Shown here: positions 2,876 to 58,332 of the stretch, in pieces
How the letters are laid out: every line of letters begins with the position of its first letter
Position numbering within the stretch: position 1 is the first letter of the stretch
Origin: Ascaphus truei
Taxonomy: Eukaryota > Chordata > Amphibia > Anura > Ascaphidae
Assembly (NCBI GenBank): GCA_036426205.1
Contig: CM071568.1
Span: 43,846,841-43,910,840 of the forward strand
Direction of reading: 5' to 3'
DNA: 64,000 bases
Made by a program: the position numbers and the translations under genes
The notes under the pieces: generated by a model
Database searches by the model: none
Told to the model about the DNA's origin: nothing
What the model saw: only the letters and a program-made list of their open reading frames with translations

Positions 2876-2987
2876 TTTTCATCTTGTCTCAACTCTGGGA
2901 CCACAGTTTTTTCATTACACTCAGAAGAGAATCAGATCATTTTGTAGTGCCCTGGAGCCTGTTTTCTATCAGGAAAATCAGTGAGTA

Positions 2988-30321: not shown

Positions 30322-30724
30322 TACAGATGCAGCGGCCGTTATTCTAACATTTCACGCGTTGGATCCCTTTGCCTTCCGGGTGATGGAGCTTGATTTCTCT
30401 AGATATTCTCGCTTTAAGACGCGAGATTAGTAGTGTTTTGATCAAGTGCAGAAAATAGCATTTTAGCGTTGTCTGCAATACCGTCCAGAAACTGAAGTGG
30501 GCGATCGCGAGTTGTCTTAAAGATCTAAATTCAATTCAACTTGTCATTTATTGCCGTACAGTACTTCAAGTGTGTGTAATTGTAATTAGAATTATAACGT
30601 TATGAACATTGCGTTCATACAGCATACATGGGAAAGAAGTCTTTTCTGAGGCTCCTTAGCCAAAAATACAAAAATTCAATGTCGCCTCCCTCTTCTGCCG
30701 AATGTAAAATATGTTTTCCGCGAA

Positions 30725-31345
30725 TGAGTGTTTCTCAAGTTGGAACCTTGTTAAAACCGTAAAAACATGAACACACAAAAAAGTACAGTATATTTAAAGA
30801 ATGAGCATTTTTATTTGGACAGGATAATAAAGAGAAAAATAATAATAGATCAATACAATGTCGCCTCTTCTTCCGAATGTAAAATATGTATTCCGCAAAT
30901 GAGTGTTTCTCAAATTGGAACCTTGTTGAAAAGCATATGTGTGTCATCACATTTCTGCGCATGCGTGTCTCTCAAATTAGAACCTTGTTGAAACACATAT
31001 GCGTTTAATTACATTTCTGTGCATGCGTGTCTCTCAAATTGGAACCTTGTGGAAACGCATATGTGTGTCATCACATTTCTGCGCATGCGTGTTTCTCAAA
31101 TTGGAACCTTATTGAAACACATATGCGTGTCATCACATTTCTGTGCATGCGTGTTTCTCAAATTGGAACCTTGTTGAAACGCATGTGCGTGTCAACACAT
31201 TTCTGCGCGTGCGTGTTTCTCAAATTGGAACCTTATTGAAACACATATGCGTGTCATCACATTTCTGTGCATGCGTGTTTCTCAAATTGGAACCTTGTTG
31301 AAACGCATGTGCGTGTCAACACATTTCCTTCGCGTGCGTGTCCTG
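30725..31345 (+). repeat. 62-bp satellite inside the Tc1-forkhead element
   Basis: Units contain CTCAAATTGGAACCTTGTTG, GCATATGCGTGTCATCACAT and TTCTGCGCATGCGTGTTT. About seven good copies start near 30903 and diverged copies lie before them. Each unit includes a palindromic GCGCATGCG. The open frames are artefacts. Confidence 0.85.
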
Positions 31346-31420
31346 ATGTTCCTAATTAAAATACTATACAGTAAGATACAGTGCATTTCCTCAGAGTCAC
31401 TAGATACTGTATCTGCAAAA

Positions 31421-32434
31421 CCAGGGGTGAGCAAACTTTTTATGCCGAGCCCCCCTTTTCATCCATAAAATTTCTCGCCCCCCCCCCTGCCTGATGTAAT
31501 CAAAATCACATGAAAAAAAAAAAAAACCTTTATTAAACGGTATACAATATAAATCCAAATATGTTTAAATACTTACATATTTCAACAGCTCGCGCTTGCA
31601 AAATTAAGCTGCGTCCACGCTGCCGCTGAGAGCGGTGACATCACCAACTCTCCAAGCATGAGCACAGGGTGTCCTGCATAATTTACAAGCGTGAATTGGG
31701 GCTATTTGTGTGTGTTTGTGTGTGGCTGTGTGTGTGTGTATTGACTGCTGCTGAGCGCACTTCAAAGTCAATTTTGTTTGTCTCCCCAAGCACCAAGCTT
31801 GGGAGAGCGTACGTGCACAAAGGTAATCCTTTGGAGGGGGCATTCATCCACCTCTTTGCCACCTCCCTTCCCACTCCCCCCCCCCTTTTTTTTCTTCCTT
31901 CCCCTCCATGCTTTTTGTCTTGCTATCCCCATTGTCATCCACACTCCTACCTACAGTATTATTTATTTTTTTCCGTTTTCAATGTTGTGTTTTCACTTTC
32001 TTTTTTATTATTTCTGTACATTCATAGTATGATTGATATAGTGGCAGCCTACCCTTTCACTTGCAGAGGATCGCAGCGAAGCAGGTTGCCAGCGGAGGAG
32101 AGCAGGAACACAGCGCTATTGCAGAGCAGACACCGAAGGAGGGGCGTTTGACTTCACCGTGCTCGGGCGTGCTCCTCCCCGTACCTCCAAAGCCCCTGCA
32201 CTTGCGCTCACACACCATCACGTTACCGCCACCTGCACTATCCTGTTCAGCCACCCGCACACATCTTCGGATGCCCGCCCGTGCACATCTTCTTGGCCGC
32301 CCCTCGCACACAGCTTTTGCGTCCTCCCGCGCACAGCGTCTGCCGGCCCGCGCACCCAGTTTTCGTCGCACGCCGCCTGCGCCCCCTAAATAATCTTGCG
32401 CCTCATTGCCCCCCCAGTTTGCGCACCACTGCAT
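31421..32434. mobile_element. hAT-type MITE, about 1 kb
   Basis: The left end CAGGGGTGAGCAAACTTTTT and the right end CAGTTTGCGCACCACTG are inverted versions of the common hAT terminus. The interior is C-rich and CpG-rich with no transposase. An exact 8-bp target duplication is not visible. Confidence 0.75.
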
Positions 32435-32985
32435 TACAACACACACTCTCTCAATCAATCAATCACCACATACACACACTCACACTCACCACATACACTC
32501 AATCAATCACCACACACACACACTCAATCCCCCCCCACACACACACACACTCAATCCCCCCCCTCACATACACACACACCCAACACACTCACACACTCAA
32601 TCCCCACACACTCACACACTCAATCCCCACACACTCACACACTCAATCCCCACACACACAATCCCCACACACACACACTCAATCCCCACACACTCAATCC
32701 CCACACACACACTCAATCCCCCACACACTCAATCCCCCCCCACACACACTCAACCCCCCCACACACACACAATTCCCCCCCCACACACACAATCCCCCCC
32801 ACACATAATCCCCCACCCCACACACACACACACAAACTCAATCCTCCCACACACACAAACTCAATCCCCCCCCACACACACAAACTCAATCCCCCCCCAC
32901 ACACACACAAACTCAATCCCCCCACACACACAAACACACACTCAAATCCACACACACACACGCACACACTTTCACCTGGGGGGAC
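32435..32985 (+). repeat. CA-rich array (ACACTCAATCCCC units)
   Basis: Over 500 bases of ACACAC, CTCAATCCCC and CCCC words lie here. Three long overlapping His/Thr/Pro/Ser frames of up to 229 codons run across it, but their composition is purely that of the repeat. Confidence 0.95.
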
Positions 32986-33189
32986 GACATGCTCCGATAC
33001 AAGAAAGGATAGGGAATTTTACAGATCCCATGCTGGTTAGTTATCTCAGGCCTTGGTTTAGCAAAAAGCACTGTAAGCTATCATGCCCATGGTAAGGCAA
33101 AAAGTGTAAAGCGGAGTCCCCCAGTCACAACATTCTGTAATTACTGTAGAACAGTACTTGTATGTGCTTGTTGCAAATCCAAATGCATA

Positions 33190-33600
33190 TTTTTGGTTAG
33201 TTATTTTCTTTTTTTGTGCCTAACAAATTGTTCTCTTTTCCTTGCTGTAGGACAGCAAAGCGTCTTCATAATAAAATGCATATTTGTGTTTAGTTATTTT
33301 CTTTTCATTTATTTTAGAATACTGTATACAAATCCATGTATTTGTTTTGACTTATTTTTGGGCCTCACAAATTGTTCTTTTTTCCTTTAAACTGTAGGAC
33401 AGCAAAGCGTCTTGCATATTAAAACGCATATTTGTGTTTAGTTATTTTTGTTTCATTTATTTTAGAATAATGTATACAAATACATGTATTTGTTTTGACT
33501 TAACAAATTGTCTTTATAGACTTTGCCTAACAAATTGTTCTCTTTTCCCTCAAACTGTAGGACAGCAAAGTGTCTGGTGGATGAAATCAGCGAGGCTAAT
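33190..33600 (+). repeat. Tandem triplication of an intron end and exon start
   Basis: AACAAATTGTTCTCTTTTCC leading to CTGTAG and GACAGCAAAG occurs at about 33225-33260, 33370-33405 and 33530-33570. The intervening TTTTAGAATAATGTATACAA block is also repeated. Only the third copy continues into transposase coding sequence. Confidence 0.8.
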
Positions 33601-35399
33601 GATGAGCCCTGTGCAGAGACAGTCAAAACTATTCTAGAGAAGAGTAACAATATCACAGCATCTGAGACCAGCATCAGGTTAATGAGACGCCAATTGGGAT
33701 GGAAATATGGATGTGTAATGTAAGTGCTTTACTGAAGGGTAAGTAACAAAGAGGCAAGAACCCACTATAAGCACTCAATACCCCCTGATGTATAATGTGA
33801 ATGTTAAAAATAATTTTTAATGCTATACTAATTAAAATAATAGGTGTTAAAATTCAACAAATGACACACATATATGATATCCTATGATGAATATATATGA
33901 TATTCCGGGTAACTAAGTAAGGCGACAATTTGAGGTTAATTGGATCAAACTGTCCCAGGGAGCCGGTATACAGTAATCCCTATTAGTGGTTAATTAGGTG
34001 TACGCTGGTATCAGTGAGGGGCTGTTCAATACCTGTCTCAGGTGTCAGACAGGTCCCAGATGGTGAAGGTGAAATGTGAAATGGATCATAATATGCTAGG
34101 TACAGACAAAAAGATCAGTATTTCAAACCAGTGTGTGCTCACTTTGCAAATCATAAATCCATAAATGGAAAGTGTAGACTCTCTCTACAATCCAACATGT
34201 AGCCACCTAACAGCAACTAGTTGACTCCTGAATAGTAAAGGAGTGGGCTGTTAAACACAGAACACAATGTGCAGAGGCTCATAGACTACTATAGGCAGTG
34301 TGGTTGTCAGTATACCTGTGCACATATTCATGAATGTGCTTCCACTGTCAGGAGTGCTAATGCCACTATAAAACTGTGTATGATCAAAAGAAACCTATCT
34401 AGTATGCAGAAAAAGGTTTCATGGTGGATACATATAGTCACCTAACAGCAGCTAATTAGCTCCAAAATAGTAAAGGAGTGGGCTGTTAAACACAGAACAC
34501 AATGTGCAGAGGCTCAAAGACTGAAGTAATGTACAGTATATTGCAATAGTATGCAGAATGACACAACAGGGTTGATACTGTACTACGGTGCAGTAATTTG
34601 GACAGTACAGCTAAAGTGTTATACAGTACTGTACTGTGAATAGATCAAAAGTCGCGAGACCTTTCAGGATGCCATCTTTTCTGACGAGACAATGGTCGCT
34701 CTTGAGAGATTTGCCACTTTTGCATTCCGCAAAAAAGGACGGCTACATCTGAAGCCGCATCCTAAGCACCCACTGAAGATGCATGTGTGGGGTGCTATCT
34801 CTAGATGGAGACCTGGATGCATAATCATCTTTGAGGGTAAAATAATGAACAAAGTCACATGCAGTGGCCTTATGTACTGTACAACTGTAGTGTATTCTGT
34901 CTCCAATGTTCACCTTTTTCATAGTTTTTTCTTTTCTTGTTCCCGGAAATCATGGATAAAGTATTTTTTCAAGAGCACATTGTCACCCGTATTGCTCAAT
35001 ACATTAGACAGGATTTCCCATCTGGTGGTCACCGCTTCTTCCAGGACAATGACCCTAAACCTACCACCTGTACTACCTATATTCTTGCCAGCAGGATCGA
35101 CTGGGTTAAGACGCCACTGGAGTAAGTGTTCCAGTGTACAGTAACCAATTCTTATTTTTTTAAACAGTTTTTATCTGATCAACTAATTTACCAGTTTTTT
35201 TTCCCCTCTCATTCCAGATCACCAGATTTGAACCCGGTCTGGCATGCGATGAAGCATCATATACTGTAAGAAAGTTTGTTAAGCTGTCCAACAAAGATGA
35301 ATTAAGAAAAGGAATACTGAGTTTCTGGAACGACATACTCACCGTACAAAAATACAATAATTATATTGACATATTGCCAGCATTTTTCCCGTACTTTTA
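33561..35399 (+). pseudogene. Tc1-like transposase with introns
   Basis: This is a DD34E transposase of the Tc1 type, which cuts and pastes its element at TA sites. Exon 1 (33561-33719) reads VDEISEANDEPCAETVKTIL and RRQLGWKYG, the second helix-turn-helix; GTAAGT follows. Exon 2 (about 34644-34840) holds the first Asp in FQDAIFSDETMV and HPKHPLKMHVWGAIS. Exon 3 (about 34945-35121) holds the second Asp in HRFFQDNDPK. A clean intron, GTAAGTGTTCC to CATTCCAG (35122-35217), joins GA to A and restores ESPDLNP. Exon 4 reads SPDLNPVWHAMKHH, then after a shift SNKDELRKGILSFWNDI. The catalytic Glu segment expected between NP and VWH is missing. The N-terminal exon is not found. Confidence 0.8.
33722..34640 (+). 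other. Probable intron of the Tc1-like gene
   Basis: It lies between a GTAAGT donor (33720) and an AG before the next coding block. A duplicated segment of about 85 bp (AGTAAAGGAGTGGGCTGTTA, then AAACACAGAACACAATGTGC) occurs at 34199-34284 and 34436-34522. Confidence 0.55.
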
Positions 35400-36265
35400 G
35401 AGTGTAATGGACAGGCCACTGGCAATCATTAAGGTACTGTACTGTACAGTAGTAAGGTAAGTACAGTAAGTATAGTACAGGTAAGTATGGTACTGACAAT
35501 AACCTATTTCAATGTTAGCCTTATATTAAAGGTACGGTTATTGAACGTTAACCATTTTATATCTGCGCTTACTCTCCACTTTCTACAGTGTATATTACTG
35601 TAAGGAATCCACACCTCGGCTTACTGTTTACCTTGCCTTACAGACCTGTGCAGTCCTGGAACACTCCCCATGATATATTCTGCAGATGTGCAAGCTATTA
35701 CTGCAGCCCCAGCTTGAGTTCAGTCATTAGAGCAATGCTCTCACACGCCCCTTTAGCTATAGGTTCGCTGACCTTTAAATACAGCTTTCCCACAATGCTT
35801 TTTTTTTACGACTACGAACTGCGCAATCCGGATCAGCCTGCGCGGTCTAAGGTCGGTGCTTATACAACCCCACCTCAGCCACGCGGTCCGACCCTGGTTT
35901 GTGGCGAGCACAACCGTGACAATTACATACAGTACATGCATTATTTGTATTAGACATGTGTGTATTACCTATTATTTATAATAATTAATTATAGTTTACA
36001 GGTATGGTTATTTATAGTTTATTTGTTTTGTGTGCCTGTCAATAGAGTTACACAGTCAAGACCTTCAATTCCCTAATCCTGCAGCCTTTTTTGTTTGTTT
36101 CAACAGGCGATGAAGCACTACAGGGAGGGGGTGGGGGGAGTACAAGTTTATTGTACTGTGTGCATAATAACAGTCAATATTTTGTCCTAATCCCCCCCCC
36201 GCCCTCTCTCAATGACAAAATAAATCCTGGCACGTTTACACCGAGTGATGTGACTCAGCTAAATC
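35400..36265. other. Noncoding interior of the Tc1-forkhead element
   Basis: Short TACAGTA-like and GTACTGT-like words are common at 35430-35490. No domain is recognised in the 121-codon frame at 35588-35953. Confidence 0.4.
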
Positions 36266-37185
36266 CCTTGAACATGTTTCTGTGTGTGTGATATTTCTGA
36301 CTTGCAAGTACCATTGGTTGTGAAGTCAGGCATGGAGAGGTGTTGAGAACACATCGAATGCTTTTTCCTTGGCTTTGGCTTTGGGAGGGTGTGGGTGGGG
36401 AAAGGTGCAATGAAGTTAAGCCATCATTGGCTAAAGCTGTGATGACAGTAGAATGAAAATCATTTGCAGTGTTTTAAAATGTATTAAAAGTTAGAACTCC
36501 CTGGAGAACATGTTTCTGTGTGTGTGATATTTCCATAAACTTATTGGAAGGTTTTGAATAGTATTCCCCCTCCATAAAATAAAAAAAAGTGTATGCCACC
36601 TCCTCAAGAAGTAAAAAGGAAGTGATTTTATGCATGTAAAAAATGAAAAAATATTTTTAAAATGCATCACATTATGTTTTCTTAAAATCAATCATTTATT
36701 AAGCCCTTGTCGAGAAATAAAAAAAATTTAAAAAAAGAAAGATATGCCTTTATTTTTTTTTGTATATTTTCAGACTTGCAATTAACATTGGCAGTGAAGT
36801 CGCTTTTGAGAAATCACAATGCAGGTCTTATCACCGCTGCACATGCGTGTGAAAATGGCAAAGACCTTTCTCAGCCCAGAATCAAAGGCTCAAAGATAAT
36901 GTGCCTTTTTATTTTTTTAACGCACGTCGCATGGCCAGGCAGGGGGAGGTGTTGAGAACACATTAAACGCTTTTTCCTTGGCTTTGGCTTTGGGATGGTG
37001 TGGCGGTGGGGAAAGGTGCAATGAAGTTAAGCCGCCTTTGGCTAAAGCTGTGATAACAGTTGAATGAAAAGCATTTGAAGTGTTTAAAAATGTATTAAAA
37101 GTTACAACTTCCTGGAGAACATGTTTCTGTGTGTGTGATACAGTATTTCCATAAACAAGGTAGAAGGTTTTGAATAGTATTTTTG
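36266..37185 (+). repeat. Direct duplication, offset about 610 bp
   Basis: The block at about 36340-36565 (TTTTTCCTTGGCTTTGGCTT, GGAAAGGTGCAATGAAGTTA, GAGAACATGTTTCTGTGTGT) is repeated at about 36952-37180. Shorter matches around ACTTGCAA...GTGAAGTC at 36300 and 36775 suggest that the duplicated unit is larger. Confidence 0.8.
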
Positions 37186-37551
37186 GGGTTTCTTACCCGA
37201 ATGAAAAGTCTAATTACTGTACAATACTGTAAAATATTAGCGTGGCAAAGTTTTAAAAGCATGAAGCTGGTAATACTGACGGACTGTATGCAAGTAAAAA
37301 AGGCAACGTTTAAAAAAAGCCAAATTAGAGTTCCATCGAACATCATCCTTACAGTATCTTTTGCTGCTCAATTTCAAAGTTTCTTTTCTGGAATTTTTTT
37401 TTTTACAGGGTATGCTATTATTTCCGGTACTGCGCATGCGTCAACTTGTGTGCATGTCTACTATCATACTGTACACTACTGTTGTGTCATTGGGAATTAA
37501 AGCTAATACTGTATAGTGTAACACTAGTACAGTACATTATATTTACCTTAA

Positions 37552-38314
37552 TTATAAACTTTGCCAACCGGGTGGAGAGGAGCCAATGTCAGAGGTGTAT
37601 TGTGTGTAGAAGCTGCGGTCACTCATGTTGTCTGCATTATAGTTGACAGGTGACTGGTGGTAGTGAGACGGGGCCAGGTAGCAATGATTATAATCAGGCG
37701 GGTTCACTAGGTTTTCAGTGACTGTCGGCCAGCTATTGCAATCGTATTGGCAAGCCGGGGTGTATTGTGCGTAGATGTTGGGGTCACTCATATCATCTGC
37801 ATTATAGTTGCCAGTTGACTGCTGAAGCCGGTAGTCAGATGGGACCAGGTAGCAATCATTGTTGATAGGTGGGGTCAGGTAGCAAGGATTGTAATAAGGT
37901 GGGTTCACTAGGTTTTCAGTGACATCAGTGACGATCGGCCCTTTATTGCAATCGCATTGGCAAGCCGGGGTTGGTATATTGCGGGGTCGGGAAATACGAA
38001 TCTTAAATGGATTAAACCCGACCTTTTGAAGTTGCCACAAGCAAACATACTGGCAAAACCTGGAAGCACAGACCAATAACCCCTGCCATCTCCCTCAGGA
38101 GGGGCAGCGCGAAAAAAACAACCTCATTAGTTAAAATTTGTCTTATCGAATGCTTCCACCCACAATGGTTAGGTGAAAATTTGAAATAATCGTAGTTCTC
38201 AATGATATGATTATATATATCTGATAAAGTCGCCGTCTTATCTGTTCCAGCATTAATTGTAGAAAATATTAGATATGCGTAACTGGCGTTCAGTTTTGAA
38301 TAAAGACTTGGCAT
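37552..38314 (-). pseudogene. Forkhead-domain gene of the Tc1/mariner element
   Basis: This encodes a forkhead (winged-helix) DNA-binding protein. The start at 38314 gives MPSLYSKLNASYAYLIFST. Helix 2 reads ATLSDIYNHIIENYDYF, and the recognition helix GWKHSIRQILTNEVVFF is close to the canonical W-x-N-S-I-R-H-x-L-S. One frameshift follows, then GRGYWSVLPGFASMFACGNF (strand 3 and wing). A second frameshift leads into GFNPFKIRISRPR and a tyrosine/asparagine/proline-rich tail. The tail has two repeats of about 60 residues (TPACQ-DCN, TENLVNPP-Y, NYNADDMSD) and ends GWQSL. It lies antisense to the transposase near the right terminus. Two shifts make this copy nonfunctional, but the domain is clear. 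Confidence 0.88.
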
Positions 38315-38791
38315 GATGTTGAGTGTACAGGTTAGGTCTATTCAGCAATTGTGCAGACATAGCAATTGAGAATAATGTGCCCAATATTGTGCTTAGATAC
38401 TTAAATTATGAAAACGCCTAAATTTAATAACGTCTTCAGCGACCAAGGTCATTTTACAATGGATCACTGTGGTGGACTCTCTTTTTATCTGGGTTTTAAA
38501 CACATGCAAATTGACACATTGTACAGTACAGTAACTGTGCTACATTATACACTGGATAGTACAAAGGGGATTCATTGTGCCACCTGGCAGATACGCAAAG
38601 AACTGCACTTAAACAAATCAGAATCCAGGTCATTCAGAGAAATCAACAACGCTAAACACAGGTGTGATTGGTGTGAATGGCCGCGTTAACGCTAGCACTC
38701 GCCGAGAATAGCGAGTGAATAACGCGTGGGATACAACAGACTTTACAAAACATCTCTGAGATATGTTCGAATAACGGCCGCTGCATCTGTA

Positions 38792-43262: not shown

Positions 43263-43289
43263 CCACTTGGGAACAACGTAACACACAAC

Positions 43290-45633: not shown

Positions 45634-45636
45634 CTA

Positions 45637-45945
45637 GGGCCTCATGCAGTAAGCGCCGATAAGGCTTTTATCAGCATTTTCCCGCCAAAATTGGATTTGA
45701 GATTCAGTAAGCGCCGATAAGTGCTCAAAATCGGCAGTTTTTGTTGCCGAAAAAAAATTATCGGCATGCGGCTGCCGATAACCCACTTATCGGCACTTTT
45801 TGGCACTTTTTGAAATCGGCTGTATTCAAGTAGCCCCGATCAGTTTATCGGTGCTGATCGGCACTCAGAAATGGAGATTTCATCGGCAATTGGTCACGCC
45901 AACTAAAGTTGGTAGGTTGGAGGGGAGAACGATCGGCAAGGTTGC
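45637..45945 (+). promoter_or_regulatory. Left terminal and subterminal repeat array of the Harbinger element
   Basis: After the terminus, about a dozen variants of GCCGATAA/TTATCGGC occur in both orientations, e.g. at 45654, 45713, 45758, 45774 and 45787. Subterminal arrays of this kind are typical binding sites for transposase accessory proteins. Confidence 0.7.
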
Positions 45946-46970
45946 CGGGACGGCACTTAGAAAAAAAACCTTATCTCTACATCAGTGGAGTCAATGGAGC
46001 GGGGACTTATAATATTATTGTAGTGTTTACGTTCTATTGCTCATAATACAAATGTGCTTGGCATTATAGTGTCGAGGTCATTCACTTCATCGTGTCACCC
46101 CTTACGTTTATTATGTGCATAACATTGTACTTTTCAATGTTATGATGATTTGCGTGTCACATTAGTCTTAATGTTATGATGTGTCAAGGGAAAATCCTAT
46201 ACTCAACTCTTAAAGGAACAGGTCACATCATATCGAACATGTTATTTAAGTGTGCTTCAATTTATTATATGATGTAACACATTTCACACATCTAACAGAT
46301 CCAGCGTATAGTAATGTTGGTATACATTATACAATGCTTTTAATGTGTAACGCATGATCAAACGTAAATGTAGCTGTTTGTTTTCATGTTTACATGTACT
46401 TTTTGACCTCCCCCTTTTGATGACATCCGCAATTGGACACTCAATAACATTGCATGTTTACATTGTACACGATGCATTACAATCACTTCATGCTAACTTA
46501 TACACACATCTATAATAGTTACTCATTTTTACACGATTTAAACTGAATCAATTGCAACTATCCTGATGGCATTAAATTATGCATTTGCACATTACAATAA
46601 CTTCATGTGAACAGGTGACAATAACATGCCAAATTACACATGTTGCAACGTAGTTTCTCAACGTCAATGTCATGGTTGTATCCTAATTAGATGACTGAGT
46701 GTTGCGTTCAGAAGTGGTACATGCATTACACATTCCAGAAATACTTGACAATAAATGCTTGGACAAAGCTTAATGTTACATCATTCTCAAATATCATGAT
46801 TGCCTGGTGAACAAACATAAACAATTATTTTAATTGCTAATGGATACACGTTGGGAGTGAACTACTTGGATATGTTAATGTAACACCTTTCACTTCAGCA
46901 AGTCACCTGACATCATCACATCACATTTAAAGGAGGGCAATTACCTGCGCATTCACAGCTACGGACCTGA
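45946..46970. other. Noncoding 5' region of the Harbinger transposase
   Basis: AT-rich with no long frame. The promoter of the transposase gene is expected here, but I cannot place it. Confidence 0.45.
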
Positions 46971-46975
46971 AAATT

Positions 46976-48292
46976 ATGCAAATGTTTATGAGATGGAGGA
47001 ACATTCTATTGGACGAGAGGCTTGCTGATGGAGAGGATGTCACAGGCCAAGGAAGGGACAGGGACAGAGGCAAGGACAGTGGCAGGGACAGTGACAGGGA
47101 CAGGCACGTGGACAGGAGAGAGAGAAGGAGAGGGAGAGGGCAAGGAGATGAGAGGAGAAGAGGAGAGAAGTTGTGCCTCGTCCTCATTTGTACAGGGAGA
47201 GAACCCGGTTAGATGGGATGAGTGAGGAGGAGATTGTAAGTCGCTATCGTTGGAGTTCAGCAGCAATCTTAGCTCTTTATGAAGAGATACGGGGAGATTT
47301 AGATTTTGTGACAGCCAGAAGTCGTTCAGTCCCTGGGTTTGTTAAAATGCTGTGCTCATTACATTACCTTGCTTCCGCGTCATTCCAGACAACTGTGGGC
47401 ATAGTGGGCGGGGTCTCGCAATCTACATTTACCCAGTTTCTATGTGCACTCAATAGATGCGCTAGGAATTATATTCATTTTCCTACAGAGCACACAGAGT
47501 GGCTGGAAGTCAGGAGTGGCTTTTATACCATAGCCGGGATACCATGTGTGATGGGTGCAATCGATTGCACCCATGTTGCTTTGATCCCGCCTAGTCAGAG
47601 TGAGCATGCTTACCGCAACCGTAAGCACTACCATTCCCTGAATGTACAGGTGGTATGCGATGCCACGATGAAGATTATGCATGTGGTAGCCAAATTCCCT
47701 GGTTCCAGTCACGATTCCTCTATCCTGAGAAACTCATCAGTCTTCCATGCTTTCGAAGAAGGCTATTTTGGACCTGGTTGGCTGGTGGGTGAGTACATAT
47801 TATGATGTGTTAACAAACAACTCTTGGTTTTCTAGGAAATGTTATATGTAATAATGTTAACACTAATTGTTTCATATTTGTGCACGATGGATTATAGGTG
47901 ACTCAGGATATGGAATTAGGCCGTGGCTGTTGACCCCTGTGGCAAACCCTCAAAGTGAAGCAGAGGAGAGGTACAATGTTGCCCACATATCTACGCGATC
48001 CGTCATAGAGAGGACATTTGGGCTTCTCAAGACAAGATTTAGGTGTCTCGATAGAACTGGTGGGGCACTTCAATATAAGCCTGCTAAAGTGTCTGATATT
48101 ATAATTGCATGTTGCATTTTGCACAATGTGGCACTCCGCAATAATGTACAAACAGACATACGTCAGGGTTTGGAGGAGGAGCATCCCGTCAATTTAGCAG
48201 CTGACAATGACCAAACAGCCAGTGGTGTTGAGACACGTCTGAATGTCATAAACACATTTTTTTCATGTAAGCAAATACATATATGTTCATAG
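46976..48292 (+). CDS. PIF/Harbinger transposase, HARBI1-like, two exons
   Basis: This DDE nuclease excises and inserts the element. The coding part from about 47152 reads PHLYRERTRLDGMSEEEIVS, then the helical N-terminal region RYRWSSAAILALYEEI and GFVKMLCSLHYLASASFQ. Catalytic motifs are GAIDCTHVAL (first Asp, about 47550), FPGSSHDSSILRNS (second Asp, about 47697-47740) and STRSVIERTFGLLKTRF (Glu, about 48000). A 109-bp intron at 47789-47897, GTGAGTAC to TTATAG, splits the Gly codon of LVG-DSGYGIRPW. The end is DIIIACCILHNVALRNN and a stop at 48292. The start is unclear. An upstream frame from 46976 is in another phase across an AG-rich tract (47050-47165), so there is either a one-base shift or a start at ATG 47218. 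Otherwise the gene looks intact. Confidence 0.92.
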
Positions 48293-48299
48293 TACTACA

Positions 48300-49501
48300 T
48301 AGATGTATTCATTCTTTGTTATGATAAATACATTTGTCCAAATACCATACACTTAGGAAACAGATGAATATGGTTCACACACCTTTCTCTTCTCTGCTGT
48401 GTGGACAATTGCATGTGGCACCGGTATGTCATTCATCAACAGGTTGTATTATACTTCTTACCAATAAAAGGTGTTGTGTGTACGTGAAGAAATAATGTGT
48501 ACTAAATCTATATTTTATGTACATGCTCTTTTTGGTTATGCATACACAATAAACCTTCTATATCCATAGTCAATAGCTAGTGCAGTATGGTTACATACAA
48601 TGTTTCTTTTGCAGTGTGACATGTGAGTTACAATGATGTGTACACTATTGTGTATTTCTGATTATATTTGACGTATTCTAGATGTTGTTTCATATCACAC
48701 ACAAAATGGTCAATTTTGTGTGTTGCTTACCTTAATGAACATGTCATGACAATGATTTATATTCATTCATGTTTTCTTTTACAAGGTATATCACTTCAAT
48801 GACTGCTCATGGTATGTATTTCAATTCACATCTGTCATAAGATGTGCAAACCTCGATACAGGTATAGTTACAGGATGTATAAACATAACGTAATGAAAAA
48901 GATGTTACAATTGAAACATGTCGTTTCTGTATTGTGTACGTGCGTTTAGCTACACTTGGTGGTTATTGTGCAGTGTCTTTTAAAATCATCAGGGACATTA
49001 CATTACATGTAATTTAGCAAACGTAGCAACATCCATTCATGGAATATAGGGGTGGGGGGAGAGAAGGGGATAAACCCTGCTCAGCTATTGATTATGGGAG
49101 GAGAACATCCATTGATGCACATGAGCGATGTTAACACTCAATGCATGTTTGTATGAAAAGACCCCAATGTTTAAACATCATTAACATTGCAATGTATGTG
49201 ATTAGTTGTTATATCACTTCATCTTCATGTTGATTACTACATTGTCACATGTGTATGTATAAGTCAAAGATGTGTGTTGATTTGACGTACATGTAACATG
49301 TGTCAAAATGTTAACACCATTCCAAAGTATAGTTCTTTGGATTCTCAACTTTTCCTAATGCATTCAACACAATGACAATGTTTTAATATAATTTTTATTT
49401 TATTCACGTTAGTTATTCATAATGATCATGATCCTTTATAACTAATGTCAACATATGAACATAAATGAAGTGGACATTTGCATACGCACACATTTCAGCA
49501 A

Positions 49502-49543
<42 letters not shown>

Positions 49544-51220
49544 TGTAGTTTTTGTGTGATGCATGTATTTCTATGTGAAATAATATAAACAAACATAATA
49601 ATGTTGCTTTTATCATCGGCCTCACTTAGCTATGTATGTGTTGATCGTTTACTAATAGCACTAAACTATAGTTACTCGTGTGAATAAAATTTACACACAA
49701 ATGTTCATGGTTTCATGATCTTTAACTAACATTCATTAGCTCATGCATGTTAGGTTAGCACTACAACTTAGGTGAAAATATAAAATGCACACGACTAAAC
49801 AGTTTCTATCACCTCCCTATTGTTATTGTCTACGTTCAGATACAATGTCTACGAGTTGTTATGTAGTATTTACATTCTTTGACAAGTCACACGTGGGATT
49901 ATAATATATAGTAGATTCATGTGTTTGCTGAGTGATAATGTTGGTTGCATATATCACATGGCAATACATATAATGTTAGTAGAAAAGAACCAAAAAACAA
50001 TATAAGTTCTAACTTCAGTGCTTAGCAACATCATTATGTTAATTAAGTGCATAGTAAATATTAGCATAATAGGATAACATTATGTAGTGATTGTTAATCT
50101 GCGCACCAATCATTGAAAGCATTGTTACATATTTATTATAATAGTTGTTCGCTCGTCGTCACAATCATCTAATATAACGATTGGCTCATCTGAAATCATA
50201 CATTGGCCCCATGTATTCATCCGCGACATCTGTGAAATACAGCAAACACATGATGTTCAAAGATGGCACATTTATATATGTCTCAGCATGACAACGCTTA
50301 ACACATCTCTATATGATTGTGGATATTGACGCATAAGTAACGTATATGTTTAAACTGCAAGGATAAAACTACAGATACAGTACTGTGTCATTTTTCAAAT
50401 GGCGTTGCTGGCATTATTACTGATATGATTTTTCCGGTGCCTGTATACATAATAATGTGCACGCACAACGTCTGTTGCGCACGCACGTCACGAATGTGTG
50501 GACTAAGTCTTAGCGCATGCGCAAAACGATGTGTACGCTGTGCGTTCAATACATGTCCATCCATGGTGCTGCTAGCAGTATGCATATCATGGCTGGAAGT
50601 TATGATATGGAAGCGAAACAAATTCACTTCTACACACGTACACATCTAAACTTTGTAAACGGACGTGGGCCCACGGAAAAAACGGACGATCAGCCAATGA
50701 GCGAACAAAAGACATGTGCCTCCAGCGCTGTGCACGCACCGCCCCACCGACGCTCGCGCATGACACACTGCACTGACCGTAACAATAAGCTACGGGCACA
50801 GCCAATACGGTTTCACACGCGCATGTCAGTTGGGGTGGGGCTTGCATCGGTAAACCTTTTTAAGGACGCCTTGGGACATGACCACGGTCCCACGTCATAT
50901 GTGGGCGACACTTTGTTTTTATATGTTGAATGCTAAACAATGACATGTGTGTGTGTGTTACAGTTAGTGTAACATGTTGAAATGATACTTTAAAAGCGAT
51001 AATAATCTAGGATTTAGGACTCCGTCACCAATGTGTACTAATGGTTCGTCATGTAGTATATTGTTATAGGAAATAATGTCTTTGTGCACGCTACATGTAA
51101 GCCTGTCTGCAATGTTAAGCTGTATCCACTCATTTGGCTAACAAATGGTGTATATTATTAATGTAGACATATATAATTTGAGTAAAGGCATAACGAAATT
51201 TGTATTTACCATTCTTGTAG
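48300..51220. other. Noncoding region between transposase and forkhead gene
   Basis: About 2.9 kb of AT-rich sequence with a (TG)n run at 49504-49542 and no domain-bearing frame. The GC-richer part 50440-50900 contains the CpG words GCGCATGCGCA and CACGCACGTC and could be promoter-like, but no element is proven. Confidence 0.45.
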
Positions 51221-51223
51221 AAG

Positions 51224-51904
51224 TCAAAACTGATTTGGCTGCAACTGCTCACTGCAGTAAGGCACAACAGTATCATCTATGGTTGTGGCAACAGTTGAAT
51301 CCTGAATCACACACATCTCCATGAGGGCGTCATATGGATCTGCAGTGGCTTCTTCAAACAAGACGTCCGGAGGTACATACAGTTGTTGGTTGTTTTCCCA
51401 TCCACATTGGTATTGCCCATATAAGTTTGGATACATATCATAGTAGTTATGTCCATCTTGCATCTGGTCTGGCTGAATGTAGGGTGCAGGTATATCAGCA
51501 GACGCGACAGTCGGTGTGGCTTCAGTGTCACTGGTATTAGGCAAAAATATGCTATTTAACAGAATATATGTTCCATGTTCCATGGTAAGTTTAAATGATG
51601 GCGCAACATGCCAGCATCCATATCGTTGATCTAGCCGATCATGGACACGCTCAAAACATTCATTCGCGCATAAAGTGAATTGTACAGAAGTTTTAAAATT
51701 TCGTTGTATGTCAGGTTGTTGGTAGTATGGATATTTCTTTTCAATCAAGTCATAGATTTTGGCCACGTTTGCACTTTTCTCTGGCGTTGATTCGATTGCT
51801 TCATAAATCATACATTTGTATGATTTACGTGGATGGCTGCGCAATGTGGAAGCTTCTGCCATTTCTTCTCTCTTCAAGTGTACGTTGTGTGAAGTTGAAC
51901 GCAT
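51224..51904 (-). CDS. Forkhead-domain protein of the Harbinger element (226 aa)
   Basis: This is an uninterrupted frame of 226 codons. Residues about 27-110 form a forkhead (winged-helix) domain. Helix 1 is KSYKCMIYEAIESTPEK, helix 2 is NVAKIYDLIEKKYPYY, helix 3 is RNFKTSVQFTLCANECFERV and the wing is RYGCWHVAPSFKLTMEHGTY. These align in order with the canonical pattern: PYSYIALI, SPEK, LSEIY-FI--RFPYY, SIRHNLSLN-CF, YW, MFE-G. The recognition helix lacks the usual Asn and His of NSIRHNL, so DNA specificity may have changed. The C-terminal half is rich in Tyr, Gln, Asp and Glu, with no zinc finger or transposase motif. It could bind transposon ends, regulate transcription or be neutral cargo. 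The start could also be Met 15. The call rests on pattern matching by eye. Confidence 0.85.
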   Translation of the reverse strand: MRSTSHNVHLKREEMAEASTLRSHPRKSYKCMIYEAIESTPEKSANVAKIYDLIEKKYPYYQQPDIQRNFKTSVQFTLCANECFERVHDRLDQRYGCWHVAPSFKLTMEHGTYILLNSIFLPNTSDTEATPTVASADIPAPYIQPDQMQDGHNYYDMYPNLYGQYQCGWENNQQLYVPPDVLFEEATADPYDALMEMCVIQDSTVATTIDDTVVPYCSEQLQPNQF

Positions 51905-52485
51905 ACGGATGTCTGCTGAATGTGTGAATAGTTACATGTTATCTTCGTGGTTTCTTCCAAGGTTATAATACAACGTAGCAGTTATACGCCTAGGTTTTCT
52001 CCCACAAGAAATTTGTTACAATAATTGGCTGAAATTCTTTGGGTAAGAAACTCTTTTCACAGGAATCGAAACTTTACTTTCGGCTTAGGCAATCAACATG
52101 TGCAAAACAAGTAGACTCTTTGAATTACACTAACAATGTGTGTGAAATCATCTACAGTGCTATGCTGAACAGATTTCTGGTTACTGTACACTGAGCTAGA
52201 TGTAACCATACACACACATCTCTTTGTTTGTCTCTTTTTCTGTTTTTCTCTCTGTCTGTTTATCTCTCTTTCTCTCTCTGTTTCTCTCTCTCTTTGACTC
52301 TCTCTGTTAGTCTCTCTTGATATATACATAGATATAGATATATATATAAATAAATATATATATAATTAGATATATATATATTTATCTATATATAATTAAC
52401 TATATATTGTGTGTAGATATATATATGTATATAGATATGTAGATATATATATTGAGATAGAGATAGATATATATATATATATATA
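51905..52485. repeat. Forkhead upstream region, then TC and TA microsatellites
   Basis: A TCTCTTTCTCTC-type tract lies at 52215-52320 and a long TATATA/TAGATA tract at 52320-52485. The first 300 bases contain no recognised promoter motif. Confidence 0.6.
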
Positions 52486-52640
52486 CAGTGGTTGACAAAT
52501 CACCAAAAAATCTACTCGCCACACAAAAAAATCTACTCGCCACCTAGTACCAAACGTGTGCTGCTTGGGCCAATATTTAGTCGCCCCGGGGGTTAAATCC
52601 ACTCGCCCGGGGCGAGACAAAGTATAGGTTGTGAACACTG
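52486..52640. mobile_element. 155-bp hAT-like MITE inside the Harbinger element
   Basis: It starts CAGTGGTTGACAAATC and ends GGTTGTGAACACTG, short inverted ends. The interior ATCTACTCGCCAC and ATCCACTCGCCC words link it to the hAT MITE at 8215-8721, whose left end reads CAACAAATCCACTCGCCC. Confidence 0.65.
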
Positions 52641-52649
52641 TAAAAAAAA

Positions 52650-52712
52650 AATAAATATATATATATATGTATGATCTAAGATATAATATACATATATATA
52701 TATATATATATA

Positions 52713-52759
<47 letters not shown>

Positions 52760-52765
52760 TTCTAT
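52650..52765. repeat. (TA)n microsatellite
   Basis: Nearly pure TA repeats run across this stretch. The Ile/Tyr reading frames in it are artefacts. Confidence 0.95.
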
Positions 52766-53154
52766 CTGTACATTTAAGGGCTTGTGTGCTAACAGGCCTT
52801 GTTGGAATTCTATTAACACCATTACAGTTTATAACATTAATGGTGAGTATGTTTGAGGGCCTATTTGAGTACGGTGTATAAGTAGTAGTAAAAGCAAACA
52901 AGGCCTCTTTTGAGCCATGAAGGCCTGTACTGTTAATTCTGATTATTATATATATATATATAGAGTGCTAAACTAAAGCCATTCATGGTGTAGTAGGCCT
53001 TGTTGTAATCTATATTCAAAGTTAAATACAGGTGAGTGAATTATGGGCTCAATCATACTGATCCATAATTGTAGCAAGTGTCCTAACATTATATCTCATA
53101 AACACAAGGCTGTTTGCTGACAACAGTGGCATATATATATATCAGTAATAATAT

Positions 53155-53239
53155 ATATACACACACACACTCACACTGGTGGGTGTGGTGTGTTTGTGTG
53201 TGTGTGTGTGGTGTGTGGTGGTTGTGTGTTGTCTTTTGT

Positions 53240-53288
<49 letters not shown>

Positions 53289-53292
53289 ATAT
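53155..53292. repeat. (TG)n microsatellite
   Basis: TGTGTG tracts, interrupted near 53230, follow a short ACACAC run. The His/Thr and Cys/Val frames are artefacts. Confidence 0.95.
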
Positions 53293-53964
53293 ATCCATGT
53301 ACATATATCCATAGAGATACAGAGAGACTACATATATATTCATACACACTAACAGATCTGTTATTGTAACCAAAAATCATACATGATCACATGCCAACAT
53401 TATGAACTATGAAAGAAGATTAAAGTAAGTAATGTGTTACAGAGTTAAGACACCAGAAAACACAACATCAAAATGTATTCTGTTATATGGATAGTTACTT
53501 AAAGTTGTATGTCAATAATATTAGCATGCAATGACTATCTATATTACCAAACAAACCCACATACATCTAATCTTGAACAAGAGCTAAGTGAATGTCAGCT
53601 TCTATAAACATGGCAAGTGTTTAATGTTGTACCATTAATCAACTGATGATTAATACATATTCATATGTTATTAAATATGCCTTAATTCAGTCAGTGAACA
53701 TTTCTAAACATTCATGTGTACAAGGACATACTTGAATGTTATCAAGCATCTGTACATGATCATACATACACTATGCATGAAATAGTCTGCAGTAAACACC
53801 ACCAGGACACCAACACATTTAGTGAATGTGATTATTTATTTTTGTTTATCCTTTTGAGAGCGAGTCACAGGCCTGCTTGTTGGCTGTTGTGTTTGCCTTT
53901 TCCCTTTGCCAAGTACTTTGGCCTTAACTGTACGACTTGTACTGGCCTGTGGCAGTTCTGTGGC

Positions 53965-54195
53965 ACTGGGTGTGGGCTGCTGCACTTCATGGGCACTGGG
54001 TGTGGGCTGTGGCACTTCAGGGGCACTGGGTGTGGACTGTGGCACTTCAGGGGCACTGGGTGTGGGCTGTGGCACTTCAGGGGCACTGGGTGTGGGCTGT
54101 GGCACTTCAGGGGCACTGGGTGTGGGCTGTGGCACTTCAGGGGCACTGGGTGTGGGCTGTGGCACTTCAGGGGCACTGGGTGTGGCCTGTGGCAG
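53965..54195 (-). repeat. 30-bp coding minisatellite in the Myb-like gene
   Basis: Seven to eight tandem copies of a 30-base unit encode PQPTPSAPEV. Copies differ by few bases, which suggests recent expansion or homogenisation. Confidence 0.95.
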
Positions 54196-54849
54196 TTGTG
54201 AACCAGTTGCTAAACATTGCACGACTGAGGTTTGAGCAGTTTCTTGTTTTGGTGTTTTAGTCTTTTTCCAAATGCTGGTTAGTAGTAATTGTTGCCCTAA
54301 CTTTCTTTTTCGTGTCTCATTTGTAGGTGTCCGTTCTTGATTTTGAACAGATGTAAGCGGTTGTATGTTGACAGGGACCAGCACAGAACTTGCACCTAAT
54401 GTACCGGTGTCATCCACAACTGGGGAATGAAGAACTGATGACTCTGGAGAAAAAGTAGCAGCATGTAAAAATCCACCCTCAGATGGGGTAAAGTGGAATT
54501 GTTCTCTTGCAGTAATTCGCAACTGATTTGCTTGGCTTAGATTCACAACTATTGCTTGTAATGCCCTGTTTAAATTTTGTATTTCTTTAGGAACTTGGAT
54601 TATGACTCTTTCAATTTGTGACATTTGTGATATTGTCCTTTCCTGCAGTGATATCATCCTTTCAAGCACTGACATCATTTCTGAATGGCGACGATTTTCT
54701 TCACAAAAGATTCTTTCTTCAGAAGCTGCAATAGCTGAGTAGGTGTCACGAGCAGGGGGACTTGAATGCTGGGTTAATCCACGAGTGGGAACATCTTCAT
54801 GGTCACTTGAGTGAATTTGTCCTTGAGTGGCAACATCTGCTTCTACAAA

Positions 54850-56347
54850 TAAAGAAAGACATTATGAACTGGCATGGAACTTTCACTTGTTTATCAATAT
54901 AATGAGAGTTGTTCTCACAGTGTAACACATAACATGTTTTCATAATTTTTCATTTGTGTCAAATTAAAAGTTTATGCTTGAAGTAACAATTATGTTTTTA
55001 CTCAGTGTGAAAGAAGAATGAATGAAAGGTTGTTGTAACCTCACAACTCCTAGCTGATAGTTTACAACACACACAATACATGTTGTCATGAAAAACTACA
55101 TCTTCTGTGACAATAACTGATGTGAAGTTAATTACATGTGAAAGGCATTTATTTAGCATGGCAAATTAACATCTAGAAATGTGCACATTAGATTTGCTGC
55201 ACCTCATACACTCACCTTCCATGCTTGATGATGAGCTGGATGAGCCAGGTGATGAGACATGTTCAGTGTGAGGTGACACATGAGCTTCAGGAGCAACTAT
55301 ATAGAAGAATAACATAAGAATTTTATTGACATGTGTACATAATTAACATAAAGTTTGTGTAGTGGGAGTATTTATGGCTAAATATCAGCATCACATAAGG
55401 AAATGACAATATGTTTCTGCCAAGCTGTACATTATCCATCTTAACATCAATGTACATGTGAACCTAATTGGCACATTTATTGTAAAAACCATACAACATA
55501 CAATGTTCATGCAGGAATGCGTTCTAAAATTAAGTGTTCTGTTGGACATACACTGCATATGTTGTGTAGTAATCTAACAATAATAATGTACATCACTACC
55601 ATGACAGCAAAGTTGACTGCTTATAATTCAGTACCTAATTGTGGAAATGTGAATGAATGTTTTTAGTGATCTGTGTGAACATTTAAGAGAAGCAGGTGTA
55701 GCGCTCAATGTGGCTGACACTCATCAACACATGCAGTGTGTCGCTCACAGATGATACTGGTGTGATAATGTGGCGTTTCTATAAGGTTAATGGAAGATAT
55801 GAGTGAACGAATGACTAACGTACGTTTTCATATATAGTGGCCTGGTGGGTGAAAGTTTTCATAGAATTACCATTTCAAATGAATGTGATGAACTTCTGTT
55901 CACCTTGTCAGCTTCTAACAACTGTAGTCCCTCCCCCAAGACGTGACAGCACCCTGACCTTTTATTTTTTTCTACCACCTGTAAGGCGTCCCACAAGACT
56001 TGACCGTAACATGACCCTGTGATCTGGCTCGGTGCCCAACCCCACCCCCTGTGTTCTCCTCTATGCTGTGATGACATATTAATTGCAGCTGGTTTCACAC
56101 ACTGGTACATGAGTGAAAGACAAATCTGAAGTGAGCTACATATGAACACAATTAAATACCATATGGTACATGTTCCTATTTATGCTCTCAGTATACTACA
56201 TGAAGCAAAAAAAGAGCTTTAATTAAACATAACGAAATGTGTTTGTGCAAATTATGAATGTTCACCTTTGAATGCACTATCTTCCATGCAAAACTTTATG
56301 AGGCAGTAATGGCTTGTTTATAGGTGTAACATAGATTATCACTAATT

Positions 56348-56410
<63 letters not shown>

Positions 56411-56762
56411 CAACTGTAAATATTACTGTATGCTCATTTGCATGTCTTAGAAAGGTCTGCAATCCTGTCTTTCCCCATTATCGCCCAGCATACAGCGCTT
56501 CCACTGCAGCAAGGGATTCTGGGAAATGACATGCAAATGAGCACTCAGCCACCTTTTGCCACCATATATATTAATTTTTACTTTTTGTAGGACAACTAGA
56601 TATAAATATATATAGATAGATAGATAGATAGATAGATAGAGAGAGACATATATACAGATATATATGTAGGTATGCTTATATTGGGAAGAAAGTATAAGTT
56701 GCAGCGGAAATATAGATAAGAACTGTAACCTACGACACGCCTAGTACAGTAACATTTGTCAC
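54850..56762. other. Introns of the Myb-like gene
   Basis: Apart from the 81-bp exon 3, this region is noncoding. It includes a (TA)n run at 56348-56410, the repeat at 56431-56560 and (ATAG)n at 56610-56640. Confidence 0.6.
56431..56560. repeat. Interspersed repeat shared with 19150-19255
   Basis: GCATGTCTTAGAAAGGTCTG, then CCCCATTATCGCCCAGCATA and ATGCAAATGAGCACTCAG, follow the same order as at 19150-19255. Both copies are next to a TA microsatellite, which suggests a shared target or a common 5' edge. Confidence 0.7.
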
Positions 56763-56984
56763 CTGGTGGAAATGGAGCAGAATAAATTCCGATATCTCTG
56801 TCCCCGGGCAAACTCTCCACGACGACAGGAAGATATTTTTCCCGCATCTGCTCCTCCAATGGTGTTAAGATTAGAGATTGTGCTGACGGGCCACCTCCAG
56901 TGCCAGAAGCATGCATCCGTTGTGCTTGTATTTTTTTCTTTAAGTTTGCCCTGATATCATCGAATCTCTTCCGACAATTCGCCC

Positions 56985-57132
56985 GGTCCCTGACATGATT
57001 CCCACACGCAAACACAGCCAAGGTTATTTGATCCCACGTTTCTTTTTTTGAATTCGCCCGGTCCCGACATGATTCCCACACGCAAACACAGCCAAGGTTA
57101 TTTGATCCCACATTTCTTTTTTTGATGCTGAA
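56985..57132 (-). repeat. 74-bp tandem duplication in Myb exon 2
   Basis: CGACATGATTCCCACACGCA followed by AACACAGCCAAGGTTATTTG occurs twice in direct orientation with only two or three differences. It duplicates WDQITLAVFACGNHV and changes the frame. Confidence 0.9.
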
Positions 57133-58059
57133 CTTGTCCGCCCTTGAAATACATACAAAATATATGACGTTAATTATTATTATAAAAACGAACAGTTTCC
57201 TAAACTGCTAGCTGTTCCAAGAGATACCAAACATGCTGGTTTAGGTGTAATATGTGTACCACATGAGCATTTACATGTAAACATACAAATGCGTGAATAT
57301 TGTATGAACTATGGCAACATTTTTAGACTGATTGTTATGGTCATTCTAAAGCATGAAGGAATATGTGTGTAACAATTAAGTTTAATTGATAGATATTATA
57401 GAATCATTTTTTGATATTAAGACATCTCACATGACCTAGGATAACATGTCTTTGAAGAATCAATGCAAAGATAGACTTACCTAGTAAATGCCCATACAGA
57501 CAGTCATAGTGCTCCAGAATCCCTGTGACAAGAACTGTGTTTTCCTCTTCATTGGACCGAGGATTACGTGGCCGCTCCAGACGTTTCTTCCGAATACGTG
57601 CAGGCCCAGAGCTTGGCTGCTGCTGATTGGACTCAAAAGCGGGCCACCAGCAACCACCCCACCACCAGACACCACAGCAGCACCAGCAACAGAGCCACCA
57701 GCAGCACTCGCACTCACAGCAACACCATTCGCACTCACAGCAACAGCACTCCCCTGAATCCTACGTTTACTCAGACGTACTCACATGACTACCAGTACCA
57801 CTCACACCAGCATCACTCTTCCCACGCCTTGCAGCCATACCTCTAGCACTCACAAAGAACAGAAAATAAATGTAAAGACAATCACACTGAACACTTACAA
57901 AGTGAAAACAAGATAAATATTTAAACAAAACAACACAGGACAAACTTCTCACAATACACCACAACTGTCTCAGTCAATATGAAATATGTAAATCGGCCAG
58001 CTCTGTGTGTGTGTCTCTCTCTCTCACTCAGAAACAACACAGAGAATGAATAAAAATAC

Positions 58060-58332
58060 ACACTGCCTTTAAATGGACCGCTCAATCCAAAACATGCTTG
58101 CTTCGGCAGATTCAGCAAGAAGTTTCATTGGGGAACCTAACACCACCTCGCCATGCACGCCGATATACCTATGTGTGATCGGCAAATCATCGGCAGAGTG
58201 GGAGCAAATGTTTTCGGCTTGATTCGGAAGGGATTCAGCACTTATTGCATACGGAGAGGGAAAATCGCCAGAATCATGCCGATAAGGTACCCTTGGCGAT
58301 TGCACTTTTTCTGCGCTTACTGCATAGAGCCC
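58060..58332 (-). promoter_or_regulatory. Right terminal and subterminal repeats of the Harbinger element
   Basis: GCCGATA/ATCGGC words at 58158, 58177, 58188 and 58278 precede the terminus. They are fewer than at the left end but of the same type. Confidence 0.6.

Follow-up and report, generated by a model that had tools for sequence, protein, structure and literature searches.

How does a transcription-factor domain come to lie inside two DNA transposons of different superfamilies, and what would it do there? The question is raised by a 64,000-nucleotide stretch of the genome of Ascaphus truei (Anura, Ascaphidae; GenBank assembly GCA_036426205.1, contig CM071568.1, forward-strand positions 43,846,841 to 43,910,840), here called the window. 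It holds a Tc1-like element at 30324-38789 and a Harbinger element at 45637-58332, each with a gene for a forkhead-domain protein. An initial annotation of the window had described the two genes and left open whether they reflect two captures or one capture followed by transfer. The account that we favor, with some reserve, is a single capture that founded a gene family of PIF/Harbinger and Tc1-like transposons, encoding an accessory DNA-binding protein for transcription of the element.

Results

Both elements are bounded by terminal inverted repeats (Table 1), of 26 columns in the Harbinger element and 30 columns in the Tc1-like element, where TA stands outside both ends. In each of them the forkhead gene is antisense to the transposase. 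The annotation had reported this, and it was borne out by the Pfam Forkhead profile PF00250 (curated cut-off, 27 bits), which gave 65 bits for the Harbinger protein and 48.4 bits for the Tc1-like protein. Searches of the PDB sequences placed FOXN3 on top for the Harbinger forkhead (1.3e-8) and returned FOXK2 (6.6e-9) and a chain named interleukin enhancer binding factor (5.6e-9) for the Tc1-like one. The Harbinger gene lies between the transposase and a Myb/SANT-like gene. Both forkhead genes had been assigned to the right half of their elements; this is correct for the Tc1-like gene, 0.48 kb from the right end, and incorrect for the Harbinger gene, just left of the midpoint (51985).

The distinction between two superfamilies is secured on the Harbinger side by the transposase profile PF13359, and a Tc1/mariner identity is likely for the other element. 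Its transposase matched the Pfam profile DDE_3 below the cut-off (E 0.17), and therefore the assignment rests on the termini and on catalytic-block motifs. The blocks FSDET, DNDPK and SPDLNP occur in that order, and blocks of the FSDET and DNDPK type are what we take to be the Tc1/mariner catalytic motifs. Similarity to a canonical Tc1 frame of the window was weak (E 0.09); two other transposase pieces had no Pfam match, and the third acidic catalytic residue was not seen in the window copy. Target duplications of TA and CWG had been proposed. The TA flanks of the Tc1-like ends stand, and CWG does not: the Harbinger flanks are CTA/CTG in the window and TAT/TAT in L019, the sole other copy with both ends, and single flanks read TAA, TTA, TAT and TAT on the left and ACA and CTA on the right.

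The same gene order recurs in the genome (2.82 Gb in 19,235 contigs). For each genome query the best 150 matches were scored out of a longer list of candidates, whose totals are rough preliminary counts that may include the same sites under more than one query: 11,300 for the Harbinger forkhead (identity 81-100% among those scored), 6,009 for the Harbinger transposase, 12,606 for the Tc1-like forkhead and 8,191 for the Tc1-like transposase (piece b, with the FSDET block). Combining the best 150 matches of the two Harbinger queries gave 28 forkhead-transposase pairs less than 12 kb apart, the window included and one transposase counted twice; by our own arithmetic about 0.2 would be expected by chance. 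All 28 are antisense, with the forkhead 2.7-6.2 kb downstream in 27 and on the other side in one. The Tc1-like queries, combined likewise, gave six pairs with the window included, of which five are antisense and have their forkhead at a downstream distance of 3.1-3.6 kb (3.37 kb in the window) and one is on the same strand. The linkage of forkhead and transposase exceeds chance, and the order first noticed in the window is reproduced by 27 of 28 Harbinger and five of six Tc1-like pairs.

Ten Harbinger loci of up to 20 kb each, chosen by their forkhead, were then compared with the window element. L019 matches it end to end; the left end was present in five loci, the right end in three, transposase sequence in six and the Myb stretch in three (L019, L023 and L029). 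These loci bear on the possibility that the forkhead stretch is a separate mobile element, nested near both transposases. Nesting does occur, at L002, where a Tc1-like end lies beside Harbinger sequence, and at L035, where Harbinger pieces lie among Tc1-like transposase pieces. Such an origin is nevertheless scarcely credible for the forkhead, given that L019 is a collinear full-length copy with both ends at another site and that 13 of the 28 pairs are spaced at 3.97-4.17 kb, nearly as in the window (4.05 kb); no termini were noticed around the forkhead itself, although they were not searched for systematically. The reverse comparison started from eight transposase matches outside the forkhead list, with 1.1 kb sampled at the expected forkhead site, and found a forkhead there in four.

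The ratio of nonsynonymous to synonymous substitution rates (dN/dS), taken as simple counts without a significance test, was 0.34-0.35 between Tc1-like forkheads of group A, that of the window element (one sequence), and of a second group, B (two sequences). It was 0.54 between the two group B forkheads and 0.40-0.61 between a divergent Harbinger copy, L048, and eight others over 118 codons. Nine recent Harbinger copies (of 11 sequences, L025 and L035 being left out because they did not fit the start pattern) had a pooled ratio of 0.87 and many pairs above 1 (up to 1.6), which is near neutral. Were the forkheads functionless fragments of host genes, carried along as passengers, ratios of the latter kind would be natural, as would the many copies with stops and the existence of a copy without a forkhead (L045). 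We consider this highly improbable in view of the ratios of 0.34-0.61 in the deeper comparisons, of the intact frames of about 200 amino acids at L039 and at L002, identical at 43% of residues where they align, and of the order kept in 27 of 28 Harbinger pairs. Low ratios in deep comparisons together with near-neutral recent copies fit a gene under selection in active lineages while single copies decay. The forkhead is almost certainly a selected transposon gene.

The origin of the domain was approached with two trees. The first included 11 Fox references taken from the PDB, and in it the forkheads of Harbinger and of Tc1-like elements fell together on one side of a branch (93/91); of eight alternative groupings (p 0.02-0.08), six were rejected at 0.05 and two were kept. 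A genome-wide query with the Forkhead profile (best 150 of 12,894 candidates) returned 21 matches that score more than 107 bits and whose frames measure 203-538 amino acids, and 129 at 73-94 bits. The 21, three of which were read, look like host Fox genes. Twelve domains were taken from the 150, eight of repeat type (L050-L055, L057 and L061) and four host-Fox-like (L056, L058, L059 and L060); they were sorted by sequence and tree, and the repeat-type label implies no assigned carrier element. The larger tree, which is unrooted, holds 16 transposon or repeat-type domains and 15 host or PDB Fox domains, and omits four rows of the first (two near-duplicate Harbinger and two partial Tc1-like). 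A branch at 100/96 separated all 16 from the Fox set, and L053 and L057 were the domains with which the Harbinger forkheads grouped (96/94). The split kept a bootstrap of 98-100 when long rows, Harbinger rows, Tc1-like rows or helix columns were removed. The loop before the recognition helix is two residues longer than in most Fox references in 15 of the 16 domains and one residue longer in L055; within the Fox set it is longer by one in FOXM1 and L056 and by five in FOXO1.

As the 16 domains are split from the Fox set, a single capture is favored over two, on the question that the annotation had left open: there was very probably one capture of the forkhead domain by a DNA transposon, with later passage between superfamilies. 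We infer the direction and route of this transfer, the trees being unrooted. Two or more captures of different host Fox genes, made alike by rapid evolution, would agree with the different top PDB matches (FOXN3 for Harbinger, FOXK2 for Tc1-like), with the lower support for the joint split in the first tree, where Harbinger with FOXN3 (p 0.08) and Harbinger with A/C/G/L (p 0.056) were the groupings kept, and with the long branches and the incomplete host Fox set, in which a second Fox donor may have gone unsampled. The 100/96 split with repeat-type intermediates, its stability when rows or columns are removed and the longer loop common to transposon forkheads make independent captures quite improbable.

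The forkhead core (aromatic, Ser, Leu and Cys-Phe residues) is mostly kept in the transposon proteins, and the C-terminal tail is rich in Tyr, Asn and Pro and partly acidic. The base contacts of FOXN1 are Asn317, Ser318, Arg320 and His321, according to PMC7062188. The matching positions are Thr/Ser/Arg/Phe in the Harbinger forkheads (the window copy has Gln instead of Arg, L048 has Ile instead of Phe, and L043 has Pro instead of Thr), His/Ser/Arg/Gln in Tc1-like group A and Arg/Ala/Arg/Lys in group B. Thus, the Asn and His with which Fox proteins of the RYAAAYA type read bases are lost in both window families. Among the eight repeat-type rows both are kept in six, and Asn alone in L050 and L055; the repeat-type forkhead of L061 has the canonical helix WKNSIRHNLS. 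The sequence SVQFTLC, offered by the annotation as that of the Harbinger forkhead, describes the window copy, since its Q and C are absent from six other aligned copies.

Candidate binding sites were found at the Harbinger ends. The motif GCCGATAA occurs six times in the 1000 terminal bases against 0.03 expected from base-pair composition, and 15 of its 17 GCCGAT motifs are no farther than about 350 bp from one of the ends. All ten Harbinger loci have the splice-donor-like GTAAATA a short way beyond the forkhead stop; a stretch matching that after the Tc1-like stop is present in ten of 11 group A loci (missing in L012), with the GT kept in nine. We infer that the forkhead transcript would be spliced from the donor that follows the stop. 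The proline-rich frame between the forkhead and the Myb/SANT-like gene is probably a further exon of the latter. A TA-rich microsatellite lies at 52310-52760 inside the Harbinger element; several copies lose the match there and continue in unrelated sequence, as if the stretch were a frequent site of breaks or insertions. Interruption of these copies by group B elements was considered and rejected, because the sequences varied and no group B end was found there.

Group B is a large family, which includes a third, degraded forkhead in the window (Table 1) and the intact 200-amino-acid forkhead at L002. The forkheads of L002 and L041, and that of L039, a further copy of the window's Tc1-like family, scored 48-56 bits with PF00250. 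A search of the protein database gave no match for the Harbinger or group A forkhead and one for group B, a hypothetical protein of A. truei with 60% identity over 66%. This protein (P0001) is without the first part of the forkhead domain and scored 14.7 bits, below the PF00250 cut-off; used as a genome query (best 150 of 14,264 candidates scored), its top match was at 93%. L041 has an intact group B forkhead and, after it on the same strand, Tc1-like transposase pieces. Between them runs an antisense frame of about 430 amino acids (2935-4227, minus strand; 237 and 193 adjoining) with MEKMDQR repeats, pieces of which recur in L035/L036. It has no Pfam match above cut-off, and its reading as a BEN-domain protein was dropped, since the main part has no Pfam match and the PDB matches are at chance level (best E 0.05). 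Tentative, degenerate Tc1-like ends at 671 and 6958 of L041 come from a scan that allowed at least six changes and gave many chance matches. L035/L036 have the same order as L041, with a weak and broken forkhead match (E 2.8e-4). Tc1-like elements thus seem to carry the forkhead in two arrangements, antisense and, as in L041, same-strand, and the antisense orientation does not hold as a general rule. At L002 (1-1500) a group B Tc1-like end (TACTGTTGCGGCAGCTTTTATTC) directly adjoins a Harbinger copy at its TA-rich stretch; apparently, one forkhead transposon was inserted into another.

The features of the window are collected in Table 1. Besides these, a tandem repeat with a 62-bp unit (30837-31389) lies within the Tc1-like element near its left end, and another Harbinger-type transposase, now decayed, left traces that were read by eye at about 7020-7990 on the plus strand.

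Table 1. Features of the two forkhead-bearing transposons and of the third forkhead in the window.
Feature	Position	Strand	Evidence
Third forkhead, degraded, related to group B Tc1-like forkheads	3413-4018	+	E 1.2e-7
Left terminal inverted repeat, Tc1-like	30324-30353	+	28/30 columns match right end; TA outside
N-terminal transposase piece, Tc1-like	33016-33129	+	Similar to L041 4640-4933, E 1.75e-6
Transposase piece a, Tc1-like	33556-33717	+	Match to L035 5996-5835, E 3.8e-16
Transposase piece b (FSDET block), Tc1-like	34650-34877	+	Best 150 of 8,191 genome candidates scored
Transposase piece c (DNDPK block), Tc1-like	34931-35119	+	Catalytic-block motif and comparison with relatives
C-terminal transposase piece, Tc1-like	35254-35391	+	Match to L041 5144-5386, E 1.3e-13
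Splice-donor-like GTAAATATAAT directly after Tc1-like forkhead stop	37536-37546	-	Counterpart stretch in other group A loci
Forkhead gene, Tc1-like, frame broken	37552-38314	-	Pieces 38012-38314 (PF00250, E 1e-12) and 37552-38076 (C-terminus, other frame)
Right terminal inverted repeat, Tc1-like	38760-38789	-	Pairs with left end; TA outside
Left terminal inverted repeat, Harbinger	45637-45662	+	21/26 columns match right end
Left subterminal GCCGAT cluster (10 motifs), candidate binding sites	45655-45937	.	Motif count
Transposase, first part, Harbinger	47173-47805	+	PF13359, E 1.3e-17
Transposase, second part, after probable intron, Harbinger	47867-48292	+	PF13359, E 7.8e-19
Splice-donor-like GTAAATAC shortly after Harbinger forkhead stop	51202-51209	-	GGTAAATACAAAT in 10/10 Harbinger loci
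Forkhead gene, Harbinger, intact, 226 amino acids (212 from MAEAS start)	51224-51904	-	PF00250, E 6.7e-18
Proline-rich frame with 30-bp repeats	53836-54678	-	Matches in 5/10 loci
Myb/SANT-like gene, Harbinger	56596-57111	-	PF13873, E 6e-6; matches in 3/10 loci
Right subterminal GCCGAT cluster (5 motifs)	57992-58283	.	Motif count
Right terminal inverted repeat, Harbinger	58307-58332	-	Pairs with left end

Discussion

What would such a protein do for a transposon? Because the canonical Asn and His are lost in both window families, we consider that the forkhead may well be a self-directed DNA-binding accessory factor. The core has been conserved while the base-reading positions have diverged in a different way in every transposon family, which suggests that each protein recognizes the element that encodes it. 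The presumed winged helix, through its altered recognition helix, would bind the element's own DNA, the subterminal GCCGATAA cluster being the candidate target in Harbinger, and the C-terminal tail would recruit the host transcription machinery. The transposase gene, and the Myb gene where there is one, would thereby be expressed in the germ line, and the forkhead would serve transcription of the element as the Myb-like protein serves binding of the terminal inverted repeats (TIRs). This transcriptional role is put forward tentatively, as the likelier of two possibilities for the self-directed factor.

A role in transposition instead of transcription is the other: as a cofactor, the forkhead would bind near the terminal repeats and load or import the transposase. 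In Harbinger elements the Myb-like protein reportedly binds TIRs and enables the transposase to be imported into the nucleus (PMC9179366). The GCCGATAA cluster at the Harbinger ends would suit such a cofactor, and in the window, in L012 and in L039 the start of the Tc1-like forkhead is no more than about 0.5 kb away from a terminal repeat. We nonetheless think it unlikely, as a Myb/SANT gene is already present in the Harbinger element, the C-terminal tail appears regulator-like, and transposases of the Tc1/mariner type as a rule bind the element ends themselves.

Several points weigh against the account of one captured gene family encoding an accessory factor for transcription. In addition to the near-neutral recent copies and the simple counting behind every dN/dS value, the host Fox set of the larger tree is incomplete (11 PDB references and four host genes). 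Of the eight copies chosen by transposase, the four without a forkhead at the expected site comprise one with an internal deletion replacing it (L045), one in which it is shifted and two with no Harbinger match there; the Tc1-like copies L039 and L040 match the element at its forkhead end only. The GCCGATAA cluster could instead serve the Myb protein or the transposase, and the Tc1-like termini have no motif cluster comparable to it. On balance, the single-capture account with an accessory DNA-binding protein remains the one we lean toward. Its widest form is evenly poised: a forkhead lineage that departed from the host a single time, turned into a transposon module, moved between superfamilies (Harbinger, the two Tc1-like arrangements and further repeat-type families) with its recognition helix evolving anew in each element, and would now, as a transcription-factor family borne by transposons, outnumber the host Fox genes.

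The annotation knew of no described system of this kind, and our literature search likewise turned up no precedent. Full-text searches for forkhead across 5.39 million open papers, judged by titles and the opening lines of abstracts, brought up no forkhead gene in a transposon; the collection leaves most subscription papers and the Repbase reports outside its scope. The word forkhead does not occur in PMC10794172 and occurs in PMC9341512 in a reference title only, and a review of giant transposons (PMC6431247) contains none of the terms Harbinger, Tc1 and transcription factor. Harbinger elements are described with two open reading frames, for the transposase and a Myb-like protein, and forkhead is not mentioned in the accessible part of that source (PMC9179366).

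The findings would open to testing the self-control of expression by cut-and-paste elements in vertebrate germ lines and the passage of accessory genes between superfamilies. In addition, transposon genes may raise the number of forkhead genes counted in some amphibian genomes above its true value. Host transcription factors are known to arise from transposases; here the traffic appears reversed, a host transcription-factor domain having become a transposon gene that was apparently passed between superfamilies.

Compared with known systems, the window Harbinger element resembles PIF/Harbinger in its DDE_Tnp_4 transposase, its Myb/SANT gene and its inverted repeats of about 26 bp (within 25-50 bp); of the two copies with both ends, L019 fits the 3-bp duplication and the window copy, with CTA/CTG, does not match exactly. 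The element differs in its third gene, the forkhead between the transposase and Myb genes. The other element shares TA flanks, inverted repeats and FSDET- and DNDPK-like catalytic blocks with Tc1/mariner. However, the usual Tc1/mariner element is short and has a single gene, whereas this one measures 8.5 kb, with the transposase in several pieces and a forkhead near one end. The proteins resemble Fox transcription factors in their significant Forkhead profile match and mostly conserved core residues, but in both window families Asn and His are replaced, the loop before the helix is longer, the genes lie inside transposons and the domains stand apart from the 15 Fox domains. Further parallels would be accessory regulators of transposons, such as TnpA of En/Spm, MURB of MuDR and VANC of VANDAL, which likewise are encoded by an extra gene beside the transposase and some of which bind the DNA of their own element. 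To our knowledge, regulators of this type are neither forkhead proteins nor shared between superfamilies.

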